From NCBI RefSeq assembly GCF_029227915.1, contig NC_079875.1, positions 26,296,001 through 26,360,000 on the forward strand: DNA of 64,000 bases. Reading direction: 5' to 3'. The position numbers and the translations under genes were made by a program. Shown here in pieces: positions 50,886 through 64,000 of this stretch (positions are counted from its first letter, which is position 1; every line of letters begins with the position of its first letter). The stretch is from Hydractinia symbiolongicarpus. Its lineage: Eukaryota; Cnidaria; Hydrozoa; Anthoathecata; Hydractiniidae. Below the pieces are notes generated by a model. The model was not told where the DNA came from and ran no database searches. It saw only the letters and a list, made by a program, of their open reading frames with translations.

Positions 50886-51076
50886 ACAATCCCAGACAAA
50901 ATATAGTGGCAATTTTCACAAAATACAGTTTCTCTCACCCTCCTCCCCCATATCAGTGTTGCTTCTATGCGTCAGGGCACAAAACAAGGCCTAAATCAAC
51001 TCTGATATTGGGGGAAGGGGGGTACACTGAATTTTCACTGGAATGACATTTTGCCACTTATTTTGTCTGGGATTGT
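50886..51076. repeat. Palindrome P1 (unit junction), 191 bp
   Basis: The left arm begins ACAATCCCAGACAAAATA and the right arm ends TATTTTGTCTGGGATTGT. The arms pair over about 75-80 bp with small gaps, around a loop containing TCTATGCGTCAGGGCACAAA. In later units the arms extend outwards by a few bases (TCAGAC). It can be read either as a foldback element or as two long transposon inverted repeats meeting back to back, with true termini near the loop (CAACTCTGATATTGGGGG and CAACACTGATATGGGGG). Further copies at 53638-53828, 56389-56579, 59141-59331 and 61894-62084. Confidence 0.9.
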
Positions 51077-51453
51077 CTGAAAATTGGAAAAAAAAATTGA
51101 ACAGAGGTTTCCTTACCAGGTTCAAAACAGTTCAAAAATGAAAAAAGTCTTAACATACTCTAAATAAGACTGCTCCAACACATCTTGTATCAAACAGCTA
51201 GCCCATGTGGCCATGTGCTTGGTAGCCATCTTTTATTCAAAATTCAGTACTTTTACATGAGGAATGAAATGTAAACAAACAGTAATGGTAGAGTTTACTG
51301 TGTGATTCATACAAATTGAGTTTCTGAGCTACATAATACATATTTTTACAAGTTGGAGGCTAAGGTGTGCTCCCTTCAAATCAACATAAGCTAGCCTAAA
51401 TAAAAAAAACTGCAAATAATGATATAAACTACAAGAATTTTATATACAAACGC

Positions 51454-51711
51454 ATGCCTTATGTTTTCAGTTTTAAAAGTTTAATAGGCATGAGCGCCGA
51501 CAACAGTTTTGAAAAATTGGACTTTACACAAAATTTATCGAATCGTGACAATAGAAGAGCTTATTTGATAACATATTCACAAGCAGACATGGAAAAGGTC
51601 CCCAACACTCAGCGTTTCTCCGAGATAATTCTTGAGGCATTTCACAACGGGGCCAGCTGCTTTGCAAAACTTGTTTTGTTAGGTTCTGAGTATGATAGCA
51701 ATAGTTTCTAA
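51454..51711 (+). pseudogene. Rep-like N-terminal fragment, unit 1
   Basis: An 85-codon ORF (from an upstream ATG; MSADNS is the likelier start at 51490). Its core RRAYLITYSQADMEKVPN and FSEIILEAFHNGAS resembles the extreme N-terminus of a cnidarian multi-copy family that continues with an HUH-type Rep nuclease domain. Here the frame ends soon after, before any HUH motif, so no nuclease activity is expected. It could also be a first exon, but no downstream exon is seen. Repeated in all units, with stop codon at the same place. Confidence 0.45.
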
Positions 51712-51718
51712 TTGTTTT

Positions 51719-51933
51719 GTCACATGTCACCAACATGTCACCAACGAGTCACCAACATGTTACCAGTGAAAATGACAAAAAAGACACATGTCACCACATG
51801 TCACCAAACAGTATTATAATAGTATTAGTATATTTTATATTATTAGTGGTGACGTGTGGTGACGCGTCATTTTGGTGGGCATGTATTGGTGACATGTTGG
51901 TGACTTGTTGGTGACGCATTGGTGACGGGTGAC
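51719..51933. repeat. Inverted array of GTCACC motifs, unit 1
   Basis: The left half carries repeated GTCACC (ATGTCACCAACATGTCACC, then GAGTCACC and so on) and the right half the complement GGTGAC at similar spacing. The two halves form arms of about 85 bp around an AT-rich loop (AGTATTATAATAGTATTAG). Repeated short motifs in both orientations look like protein-binding sites (iteron-like or transposase-binding). Copies lie at 54471-54685, 57222-57436, 59975-60189 and 62728-62942. Confidence 0.85.
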
Positions 51934-52000
51934 CCTAAACCTACAAATGGAAAATCACACTATATAAAACATTTCTCCCAACAAAAAAATGAAAAGTAAT

Positions 52001-53161
52001 TTAATACTTGGTTCTGTTGCCTTTTCCTTGAACCACAAGCTTCAGTCGCTTTGGTATTGACTCGATCGTTCTGTTTATAATGTCGGTAGAAAAGTTTTCG
52101 ATAGTGCGTTTTACCCTTTGGCAAAATTGCTTGTAGCTCTCTGGTGTCAGTTGCATTCGTAGGGCATCATCACGAATCTGCTTCTTTACAAGGTGAAAAA
52201 CATTCTCTATAGGATTGAGATCCGGGGAACGTGCTGGAATCACGAACATCGTGCAATTTATGGAAGCCATTGCCTTTTTCGCAGCCTTTGAAACTTGTCG
52301 CGGATCTCCATCTTGCAAAAATGTATGGCATTGAGGATTGACAGTACGTGTAAATGTTTTTGGAAAATGCGTTTTCACAAATTCAGCAAAGGTTTTTCCA
52401 GTCAGTTTGTCTTCCATTTGTTCACAAAGAACTACGCCACGATCGTAAGATATTCCAACAAAAAACTGAGCCATTTTGCCCCCACTCCCTTCCTTCTTGC
52501 CTTTTGTGGTTTGACTATAACCTTCTTTTGCGAGTCTCCAAGTCATTGCGCCAGCTCCTCGAGCCTCTCCGTGCGGATTGCTTTTGTGACCAAAACTCAC
52601 CCCATCAAAATAAAACGCAATTTCATATTTCCAAAAATCAGTTCCCACAGGAAGCATTTCTCTTGCAAATGCAAGTCTCTTGACCTTGTCGGTTTTCGTG
52701 ACGAGACCTTTCTTTCGAGCTTGACGATAATTATATCCATGTTTGTGTAAGCAACGACGTACTGTTCTTGTTGATACATGTGCCAGGTTCGCTTCTTCTT
52801 GAATGCGCTTGGATGAAAATTGATTCCGCTCCTCGCGAAGTCTTGTTATCGTTCTAAGTACGGTACGTTCATCGCGAACTGTCAATTTCCTTGGTCTTCC
52901 AGTGTTGTTGTGTCGCTTGTCTTTACGACCGAGCTCATGTTTCATGTGTCGGTGTATGCTGCGGAAGGCAAATTGAGGAAACATTTTTTTTATTTCTGCA
53001 CCCGTCATTTCGTTTTGTTGATGAAGTACCTTAAAGTACGTCGACATTTCAGGCGTAATCTTTTTGGTGATGTTGCGTTGCTGTTGCATTTTGTTATTTA
53101 TAGCTTTATATCTGAAAGTACAAGTTTTGTTAGAAGCAAACTGAAATTTTAATGTGGTCAC
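52001..53161 (-). CDS. Tc1/mariner-type DD34E transposase, unit 1
   Basis: 386 codons, no interruption. The N-terminal third (about residues 35-150) carries paired helix-turn-helix DNA-binding domains, with a GRPRKL linker motif at 88-93 between them, as in Tc1/Tc3 transposases. The catalytic DDE domain has Asp186 (AFYFDGVSF), Asp284 (FLQDGDPRQ) and Glu319 (SPDLNPIEN). The spacing Asp284-Glu319 leaves 34 residues, the Tc1 signature DD34E. All three acidic residues are present, so it could be active. It would cut and paste an element at TA sites. The C-terminus is basic. It reads towards the GTCACC repeat of the same unit. Confidence 0.95.
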   Translation of the reverse strand: MTTLKFQFASNKTCTFRYKAINNKMQQQRNITKKITPEMSTYFKVLHQQNEMTGAEIKKMFPQFAFRSIHRHMKHELGRKDKRHNNTGRPRKLTVRDERTVLRTITRLREERNQFSSKRIQEEANLAHVSTRTVRRCLHKHGYNYRQARKKGLVTKTDKVKRLAFAREMLPVGTDFWKYEIAFYFDGVSFGHKSNPHGEARGAGAMTWRLAKEGYSQTTKGKKEGSGGKMAQFFVGISYDRGVVLCEQMEDKLTGKTFAEFVKTHFPKTFTRTVNPQCHTFLQDGDPRQVSKAAKKAMASINCTMFVIPARSPDLNPIENVFHLVKKQIRDDALRMQLTPESYKQFCQRVKRTIENFSTDIINRTIESIPKRLKLVVQGKGNRTKY

Positions 53162-62084: not shown

Positions 62085-62498
62085 CTGAAAATTGGAAAAA
62101 AAAAATTGAACAGAGGTTTCCTTACCAGGTTCAAAACAGTTCAAAAATGAAAAAAGTCTTAACATACTCTAAATAAGACTGCTCCAACACATCTTGTATC
62201 AAACAGCTAGCCCATGTGGCCATGTGCTTGGTAGCCATCTTTTATTCAAAATTCAGTACTTTTACATGAGGAATGAAATGTAAACAAACAGTAATGGTAG
62301 AGTTTACTGTGTGATTCATACAAATTGAGTTTCTGAGCTACATAATACATATTTTTACAAGTTGGAGGCTAAGGTGTGCTCCCTTCAAATCAACATAAGC
62401 TAGCCTAAATAAAAAAAACTGCAAATAATGATATAAACTACAAGAATTTTATATACAAACGCACGCCTTATGTTTTCAGTTTTAAAAGTTTAATAGGC

Positions 62499-62720
62499 AT
62501 GAGCGCCGACAACAGTTTTGAAAAATTGGACTTTACACAAAATTTATCGAATCGTGACAATAGAAGAGCTTATTTGATAACATATTCACAAGCAGACATG
62601 GAAAAGGTCCCCAACACTCAGCGTTTCTCCGAGATAATTCTTGAGGCATTTCACAACGGGGCCAGCTGCTTTGCAAAACTTGTTTTGTTAGGTTCTGAGT
62701 ATGATAGCAATAGTTTCTAA
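62499..62720 (+). pseudogene. Rep-like N-terminal fragment, unit 5
   Basis: Same as unit 4. Confidence 0.45.
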
Positions 62721-62727
62721 TTGTTTT

Positions 62728-62942
62728 GTCACATGTCACCAACATGTCACCAACGAGTCACCAACATGTTACCAGTGAAAATGACAAAAAAGACACATGT
62801 CACCACATGTCACCAAACAGTATTATAATAGTATTAGTATATTTTATATTATTAGTGGTGACGTGTGGTGACGCGTCATTTTGGTGGGCATGTATTGGTG
62901 ACATGTTGGTGACTTGTTGGTGACGCATTGGTGACGGGTGAC
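62728..62942. repeat. Inverted array of GTCACC motifs, unit 5
   Basis: Same arrangement as in unit 1. Confidence 0.85.
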
Positions 62943-63009
62943 CCTAAACCTACAAATGGAAAATCACACTATATAAAACATTTCTCCCAACAAAAAAATG
63001 AAAAGTAAT

Positions 63010-64000
63010 TTAATACTTGGTTCTGTTGCCTTTTCCTTGAACCACAAGCTTCAGTCGCTTTGGTATTGACTCGATCGTTCTGTTTATAATGTCGGTAGAA
63101 AAGTTTTCGATAGTGCGTTTTACCCTTTGGCAAAATTGCTTGTAGCTCTCTGGTGTCAGTTGCATTCGTAGGGCATCATCACGAATCTGCTTCTTTACAA
63201 GGTGAAAAACATTCTCTATAGGATTGAGATCCGGGGAACGTGCTGGAATCACGAACATCGTGCAATTTATGGAAGCCATTGCCTTTTTCGCAGCCTTTGA
63301 AACTTGTCGCGGATCTCCATCTTGCAAAAATGTATGGCATTGAGGATTGACAGTACGTGTAAATGTTTTTGGAAAATGCGTTTTCACAAATTCAGCAAAG
63401 GTTTTTCCAGTCAGTTTGTCTTCCATTTGTTCACAAAGAACTACGCCACGATCGTAAGATATTCCAACAAAAAACTGAGCCATTTTGCCCCCACTCCCTT
63501 CCTTCTTGCCTTTTGTGGTTTGACTATAACCTTCTTTTGCGAGTCTCCAAGTCATTGCGCCAGCTCCTCGAGCCTCTCCGTGCGGATTGCTTTTGTGACC
63601 AAAACTCACCCCATCAAAATAAAACGCAATTTCATATTTCCAAAAATCAGTTCCCACAGGAAGCATTTCTCTTGCAAATGCAAGTCTCTTGACCTTGTCG
63701 GTTTTCGTGACGAGACCTTTCTTTCGAGCTTGACGATAATTATATCCATGTTTGTGTAAGCAACGACGTACTGTTCTTGTTGATACATGTGCCAGGTTCG
63801 CTTCTTCTTGAATGCGCTTGGATGAAAATTGATTCCGCTCCTCGCGAAGTCTTGTTATCGTTCTAAGTACGGTACGTTCATCGCGAACTGTCAATTTCCT
63901 TGGTCTTCCAGTGTTGTTGTGTCGCTTGTCTTTACGACCGAGCTCATGTTTCATGTGTCGGTGTATGCTGCGGAAGGCAAATTGAGGAAACATTTTTTTT
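63010..64000 (-). CDS. Tc1/mariner-type DD34E transposase, unit 5 (cut by window end)
   Basis: 327 codons are visible from an internal Met61 to the stop. The first 60 residues lie beyond the window. The visible part is identical to unit 1 and includes all catalytic residues. The apparent start at 63993 is an artefact of the window edge. Confidence 0.93.
   Translation of the reverse strand, partial: KKMFPQFAFRSIHRHMKHELGRKDKRHNNTGRPRKLTVRDERTVLRTITRLREERNQFSSKRIQEEANLAHVSTRTVRRCLHKHGYNYRQARKKGLVTKTDKVKRLAFAREMLPVGTDFWKYEIAFYFDGVSFGHKSNPHGEARGAGAMTWRLAKEGYSQTTKGKKEGSGGKMAQFFVGISYDRGVVLCEQMEDKLTGKTFAEFVKTHFPKTFTRTVNPQCHTFLQDGDPRQVSKAAKKAMASINCTMFVIPARSPDLNPIENVFHLVKKQIRDDALRMQLTPESYKQFCQRVKRTIENFSTDIINRTIESIPKRLKLVVQGKGNRTKY

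Follow-up and report, generated by a model that had tools for sequence, protein, structure and literature searches.

The 64,000-nucleotide window that we analysed in the genome of Hydractinia symbiolongicarpus (contig NC_079875.1, C1:26296001-26360000) ends inside a tandem array of near-identical units that carry a transposase gene. With a probability of roughly 0.8, we read this array as a (LTDR-INT)n-LTDR multimer of a transposon of the Tc1/mariner superfamily. In such a multimer internal regions (INT) alternate with long terminal direct repeats (LTDRs), a composite-like build, and the array would have grown by recombination between the direct repeats.

Within the window, the array comprises 4.8 head-to-tail units running from position 50886 to the window end at 64000, with a period of 2751-2753 bp and unit starts at 50886, 53638, 56389, 59141 and 61894. 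Substitutions separate the units by 0.09-0.44% in all ten pairs. The array continues past the window to C1:26379526, where other sequence follows; it spans about 32.6 kb and 13 units, and its two ends are both in the assembly. Eight of these units are full-length, the ninth is cut at its end, and the last four are shortened and joined without LTDRs. Searching the genome (480.9 Mb, 76 contigs) revealed two more arrays: that on C12 has 8 units, equal in length to those of C1, and that on C15 has 12 units, which are longer. Thus, two points of a preliminary description of this DNA were borne out: an array of near-identical transposase units (at least 4.8 copies in the window, 13 on C1), and the recent multiplication, head to tail, of a unit with a Tc1/mariner-type transposase, with no pair of window units more than 0.44% apart.

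Each complete unit begins with a quasi-palindromic block of about 190 bp (CAATCCCAGACAAAATA...TATTTTGTCTGGGATTG). On the plus strand of the window these blocks lie at 50887..51075 (CAATCCCAG...CTGGGATTG; this copy forms the left extremity of the whole element) and at 53639..53827, 56390..56578, 59142..59330 and 61895..62083. An additional, closing copy of the block follows the last unit on the C1 and C12 arrays alike. The idea of an LTDR-U-LTDR build was formed before the flanking sequence was read and implied just such a closing copy. The block is therefore an LTDR common to neighbouring units. Its outermost copies are bordered by TA, at 50885..50886 on the left and, outside the window, near C1:26379526 on the right. 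With a slash marking the edge, the outer borders read ..cacTA/CAATCCC and GGGGATTG/TAgtt on C1, and ..atcTA/CAATCCC and GGGATTG/TAgaa on C12. Inner LTDR edges are mostly TC and GA (GATTG/TC and GA/CAATC); the second LTDR of the window, for instance, has GA and TC at its edges and no TA. Because an LTDR stands at both array ends, with TA at the outer edges and GA or TC at the inner ones, the array is one insertion of the form TA/LTDR-(INT-LTDR)n/TA, bounded by terminal inverted repeats (TIRs) and TA.

The same borders were observed elsewhere in the genome. TA/CAATC...GATTG/TA stands at both outer ends of seven loci (C1, C12, C5, C6, C14, C4a and C7), and C15 has TA at its one surviving end; TA at insertion ends is a Tc1/mariner trait. 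The combination of outer TA with inner TC/GA recurs in C5, C6, C14, C4a and C7. In general, the LTDRs measure 170-206 bp and have terminal inverted repeats of their own that start with CAATC, which makes the element ends inverted and direct repeats at once; in all eight LTDRs tested the arms scored better than in 300 of 300 shuffles. The simple TIR-gene-TIR build of Tc1/mariner elements was not found here, since each end is a direct repeat and itself a quasi-palindrome.

Single-copy, dimer and solo-LTDR forms occur elsewhere in the genome. C5, C6 and C14 are single-copy relatives of equal build, with transposases of 46-48% protein identity and LTDR pairs that are 99.5% (206 bp), 100% and 95.6% alike, respectively. 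C7 is likewise a single LTDR-INT-LTDR copy, and the dimers C4a and C4b have three LTDRs each. The TA-bearing end motif, TACAATCCCRGWCAAAATA, occurs at 74 sites in the genome, compared with none for its reversed control. When the 74 were compared with 57 transposase positions, 20 proved to be no more than 8 kb from one, and four TA-flanked end pairs are of LTDR size (175-203 bp). One solo LTDR (L029, C8:13071700-13072160) is bordered by TA on both sides; by eye, a copy of a 20-bp direct repeat (GTATTGTATATGTGCTTTGC) stands to its left and another to its right.

LTDRs of different subfamilies gave no BLAST alignment at E 1e-5 in the three pairs tried. As the two LTDRs of one element are nevertheless 95.6-100% alike, either recombination must maintain their likeness or the ends must be renewed. 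By eye, the window LTDRs and those of L022, L026 and L027, from different subfamilies, have a C-rich tract and a GTTGA-like core in common. We rejected the reading of the terminal 195-bp block as an ordinary miniature inverted-repeat transposable element (MITE), as the block is the end of an element. The palindromes are not head-to-tail TIR junctions either: conservation is highest in their outer arms, and it is an outer arm that forms the array edge.

Tandem arrays of Tc1-like elements were known before, namely the Bari1 h39 and X clusters of Drosophila melanogaster (PMC8834629). According to the available text of that paper, they resemble the C1 array in being Tc1-like, tandem and head to tail. 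The C1 array might accordingly consist of whole elements that came to abut after aberrant transposition or circle formation, and its near-identical units would suit such an origin. In the Bari1 clusters, however, each copy lacks its first two nucleotides and the copies are set end to end (PMC8834629, same text), whereas in the C1 array most junctions hold one complete shared LTDR and complete units nowhere abut directly. Additionally, the array stops at the outer edge of an LTDR and not at a palindrome centre. This junction structure contradicts a Bari1-type origin, which we consider extremely improbable. The available part of PMC8834629 mentions neither a shared LTDR nor a Rep gene, both of which are found in the present family.

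The transposase gene lies on the minus strand, at 52001..53089, 54753..55841, 57504..58592 and 60257..61345, and at 63010..64000 in the fifth unit, where the window end cuts it. As stated in the preliminary description, every visible frame is open (four complete copies and the cut fifth; 362 aa from the first in-frame ATG) and the catalytic residues are intact (D186, D284 and E319 in the first copy, the one examined; 34 residues lie between D284 and E319, hence DD34E). Pfam models HTH_Tnp_Tc3_2 (48.1 bits, cut-off 31.5) and DDE_3 (36.6 bits, cut-off 28.6) match, as does Sleeping Beauty (6e-13). Judged by its Tc1-type helix-turn-helix and DDE domains and its DD34E spacing, the predicted protein belongs to the Tc1/mariner superfamily. 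No relatives of it turned up when viral contigs and GTDB contigs were scanned.

Only 4 substitutions (3 replacement, 1 silent) separate the window frames, and the chance that four random changes yield no stop is 0.85, so that open frames are unsurprising; we read them as a probable sign of youth. Selection could also keep frames open, if the array were a transposon-derived satellite retained for a transposase useful to the host. Catalytic motifs are kept in all 13 units of the C1 array, and between C1 and C12 the coding sequence has changed at 15 of 1089 sites, against 31 of 1148 in the rest of INT (p 0.04), which pulls weakly toward constraint. An earlier form of this contrast (15/1089 versus 51/1220) was dropped, as misalignment at deletions in a second gene, Rep, had inflated the difference. 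However, between the C1 transposase and that of five of six C12 units there are 12 replacement and 3 silent changes (omega about 1.1), with 13 replacements in the sixth; the changes within the window are likewise mostly replacements; and the C15 array is no shorter despite its frame-broken transposase. Selection on the repeated transposase is not supported, and we regard a host-useful satellite as very unlikely. In place of the satellite with coding capacity, one of two options in the preliminary description, we see a multimer whose neighbouring units have LTDRs in common.

How the multimer grew can be read in part from its variants. Units 4, 5 and 6 reappear as units 7, 8 and 9, with shared private variants. 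Units 4 and 7 differ in one column, as do units 6 and 9; units 5 and 8 have a private variant in common and differ in 15 columns, 11 of which are one insertion in unit 8. This is the duplication of a three-unit block, and it supports growth by recombination between direct repeats. Moreover, sites 194 and 333, each set against site 571, occur in all four combinations, a violation of the four-gamete rule that is as expected from exchange or conversion between units. The window units are 0.1-0.4% apart, compared with 2.0% from C12 and 1.9% from C15; C12 and C15 are 0.34% apart and carry fixed differences, namely a Rep deletion and a transposase frame break. Amplification or homogenisation thus took place separately at each locus.

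These observations fit the following scheme. The complete element, TA/LTDR - Rep gene > palindrome < transposase gene - LTDR/TA, would be inserted at TA by its transposase, to judge from the family, the ends and the TA edges. Recombination between the direct-repeat ends, probably unequal sister-chromatid exchange, would then turn one insertion into an LTDR-sharing multimer or a solo LTDR; if, for example, the two LTDRs of an insertion took part in unequal exchange, a dimer and a solo LTDR would result. Multimers may form easily because the element ends are direct repeats, and later exchanges of several units would enlarge and homogenise the array. The architecture, the TA edges, the terminal LTDR shared by the units, the single-copy, dimeric and multimeric forms, the block duplication and the recombinant variants were seen directly, and exchange as the mechanism is what we infer. 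Similarly, the TC/GA inner edges may hinder cutting at inner ends.

The second gene was found in relatives, where it converges on the transposase gene. HUH, YxxK and SF3 are used here as motif names. In part, these names follow the available text of PMC6668415. From its HUH motifs and its match to SF3-type helicase models we call the predicted product Rep-like. Its loci, grouped by hand from 97 matches (90 of 212 candidates scored), number at least 46; the transposase loci, grouped likewise from 115 matches (107 of 288 candidates scored), number at least 52. Among the scored Rep loci, 34 of 46 have a transposase within 8 kb, on the opposite strand in every case, and 12 have no transposase match within that distance. 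Conversely, 35 of the 52 transposase loci have a Rep match. In a separate count, in which large arrays were split, 35 of 35 pairs were convergent.

A long Rep frame is kept in C6, in C12c and in 10 of the 12 C15 units (501 aa in C15); one of the two remaining C15 units has 441 aa still open and the other lacks a start. H76 and H78 (HUH), Y119 and K122 (YxxK) and the nucleotide-binding motif GPxNCGKS/T are invariant across the three open frames. HxH is kept in all seven sequences that span the region and the YxxK tyrosine in five of them, the other two being from broken genes. The C15 protein exceeds the Pfam cut-offs of PPV_E1_C and Parvo_NS1 and the C6 protein that of PPV_E1_C; a profile comparison gave an E1 helicase at 7e-5, and the HUH-side model REP_ORF2-G2P matched below its cut-off only. 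Thus, the traits of CRESS- and parvovirus-type Rep proteins are present: HUH with YxxK and, as a prediction, an SF3 helicase. No Rep relatives were found in a scan of viral contigs.

On the C1 array, Rep is a stub whose internal part has been deleted. In the window the stub frames lie on the plus strand at 51490..51711 (match 51490-51657), 54242..54463, 56993..57214, 59746..59967 and 62499..62720, the ends of all but the second being set by analogy with unit 2. Relative to C15, the C1 units lack about 1189 bp of Rep, with CCAGC at both breakpoints, and the C12 units lack about 1217 bp with other breakpoints; the losses were therefore independent. The 1189 bp are not an insertion in C15, as we had considered, but the body of Rep that C1 and C12 have lost. 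In C14 just the two ends of Rep are visible by eye. In the C15 units the situation is reversed, with Rep kept and the transposase frame broken, and none of the C1, C12 and C15 arrays has both genes whole.

Between the 3′ ends of the Rep stub and the transposase lies a 215-bp palindrome (51719..51933, 54471..54685, 57222..57436, 59975..60189 and 62728..62942) made of 11-bp GTCACC repeats; at the matching place, the palindromes of C12b and C14 are built from other repeat words. It may be a terminator or a Rep origin. Reading it as an ordinary MITE was rejected, as its matches lie almost only beside transposase copies; the few others, at C2:29.25 Mb, are short.

The presence of Rep brings in a second route of amplification. 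A Rep-driven rolling circle would start with the HUH protein nicking a hairpin origin, which could be the LTDR or the palindrome between the genes; copying of an LTDR-INT circle would then yield a head-to-tail concatemer, which the transposase would insert or which would recombine into a resident LTDR. The head-to-tail order, the single pair of TA edges and the strong palindromes at the ends and between the genes fit this route, as do the HUH/YxxK protein in all three open frames, its predicted SF3-type helicase and the Rep frames still whole on C15. However, the C12c protein falls below both helicase cut-offs, no nick site was identified, and exchange alone explains the block duplication and the mixing of variants. 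Furthermore, the Rep body is gone from the C1 and C12 arrays, so that Rep would have had to be supplied in trans or to have worked before it was deleted. We consider the rolling circle rather doubtful. The preliminary description had named rolling-circle and unequal-exchange amplification side by side: unequal exchange is supported, and the rolling circle stays as its main rival, with a Rep-like protein encoded by relatives and deleted in its body on C1.

Several observations weigh against a multimer grown by LTDR recombination. Five further LTDR matches have no listed transposase nearby, and TA flanks three of them on both sides, one on one side and one on neither. At C4b both outer edges are not TA and one inner edge is TG; at C12b the left edge is not TA and the right LTDR is cut short; and the C12c LTDR is interrupted by other sequence. 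Unit 8 of the C1 array has a variant in common with units 2 and 3 as well. The later units of the C1 array, from about the tenth to the thirteenth, are joined via a new junction that lacks LTDRs, which makes LTDRs dispensable for later growth. One unit read of another tandem array of Rep copies, at C1:25.57-25.60 Mb, has no CAATC LTDR. Finally, the array is known from the assembly alone, and near-identical tandem repeats are hard to assemble. That it is an assembly artefact is nonetheless barely credible: both flanks are present with TA edges, distinct variants tell the units apart, and the C12 and C15 arrays carry other fixed differences. These results confirm that the C1 array is real.

Two side observations concern Rep copies elsewhere. 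The array just mentioned (C1:25565785-25604743; L035, 25566900-25574200) has six scored related Rep copies and a 6.98-kb unit, and the unit read contains an open reading frame (ORF) that resembles a tyrosine recombinase by eye. At C7:4282105-4287249, two Rep copies 3.8 kb apart lie beside a transposase match, probably another dimer.

The nearest described system to the LTDR-sharing multimer is KolobokP, which has a common plan but belongs to a different superfamily and has a homing endonuclease in place of Rep. In the available text of Kojima and Bao (2022; PMC9587614) it is an LTDR-INT-LTDR transposon of the Kolobok superfamily, presented as unlike any other DNA transposon on the ground of its paired direct-repeat ends. 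Both systems have LTDRs with terminal inverted repeats of their own, LTDRs that occur solo and an accessory gene beside the transposase. Both also form (LTDR-INT)n-LTDR multimers, which in KolobokP usually lie between target-site duplications and are speculatively ascribed to the endonuclease (PMC9587614, available text). In Hydractinia, the TIR-bearing LTDR-INT-LTDR build was found in the single copies C5, C6, C14 and C7, and LTDR-sharing multimers within one target duplication at C1, C12 and C4a.

The two systems also differ. KolobokP has a Kolobok transposase, whereas no Kolobok model was among our Pfam matches, which are Tc1-type. As far as the same text goes, its target duplications are of 3-5 bp without strong specificity, unlike TA here (PMC9587614), and its LTDRs are of about 450 or 660 bp with 11-18-bp inverted ends, compared with LTDRs of the present size that are palindromic over much of their length. 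The accessory enzyme in that text is a His-Me homing endonuclease, in contrast to a Rep-like HUH protein with an SF3 helicase. No His-Me endonuclease gene was found among the ORFs scanned: the second long ORF of C6, C15 and C12c matches Rep/SF3 models, and four further C6 ORFs and four window-unit ORFs (81-150 aa) matched no Pfam nuclease model. The finding of the LTDR plan in a second superfamily, with a different accessory enzyme and with arrays that no longer have it, suggests that the plan arose more than once. It also allows the part played by plain recombination to be told apart from that of the accessory enzyme. The plan further shows how a lone DNA transposon could turn into satellite-like arrays and into solo-end copies that resemble MITEs.

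Helitrons encode one long HUH-helicase protein and are not known to make a target duplication. The present HUH protein differs in having an SF3-type helicase and in occurring together with a DDE transposase, with TIRs and with TA edges. What Helitrons and other HUH transposons have in common with it, to judge from the available text of PMC6668415, is that a mobile element of eukaryotes carries HUH-type Rep motifs. Mboumar of Messor satellite DNA is alike in having mariner copies with full-length transposase frames together with tandem repeats and a MITE; there the transposon lies within a 79-bp satellite and is not itself the repeat unit (PMC2581405, available part). Expansion of hobo to 16 tandem copies is also described (PMC12628747, available part). 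Among the open-access titles and abstracts listed, none describes long terminal direct repeats or a Rep gene in a Tc1/mariner element, with Repbase and subscription papers outside the search. Within that search no account of the element came to light, in keeping with the preliminary description, which named it as a candidate for an undescribed element.

A tentative and somewhat unlikely extension is that the family is a hybrid, a Tc1/mariner element with palindromic terminal direct repeats and a virus-type replication initiator (HUH + SF3) of its own, which combines cut-and-paste transposition with Rep-made concatemers and to which KolobokP is convergent. If this were true, the pairing of composite-like ends with an accessory enzyme that nicks or cuts would be a strategy of general use.

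The rest of the window holds other repeats and fragments. At 48078-50012 on the minus strand, ending about 0.9 kb from the array, there are pieces that resemble a Pif1-type helicase by eye (Pfam 0.03, below the cut-off). An isolated rDNA fragment at 42800-45300 (+), with the end of the small-subunit gene, 5.8S and the start of the large-subunit gene, looks like a pseudogene because its 5.8S lacks 18 model positions. A gene at 28047-31366 (-), split into several ORFs as if by introns, matches a KDZ (Kyakuja-Dileera-Zisupton) transposase (PF18758, 1.9e-13) and a CxC3 cysteine cluster (PF18804, 3e-15). Reverse-transcriptase elements lie at 579-2759 (-), 7098-10827 (+) and 16612-20116 (-); one has a PHD finger and an endonuclease domain, and that at 7098-10827 resembles, by eye, a gypsy-type element in broken frames.

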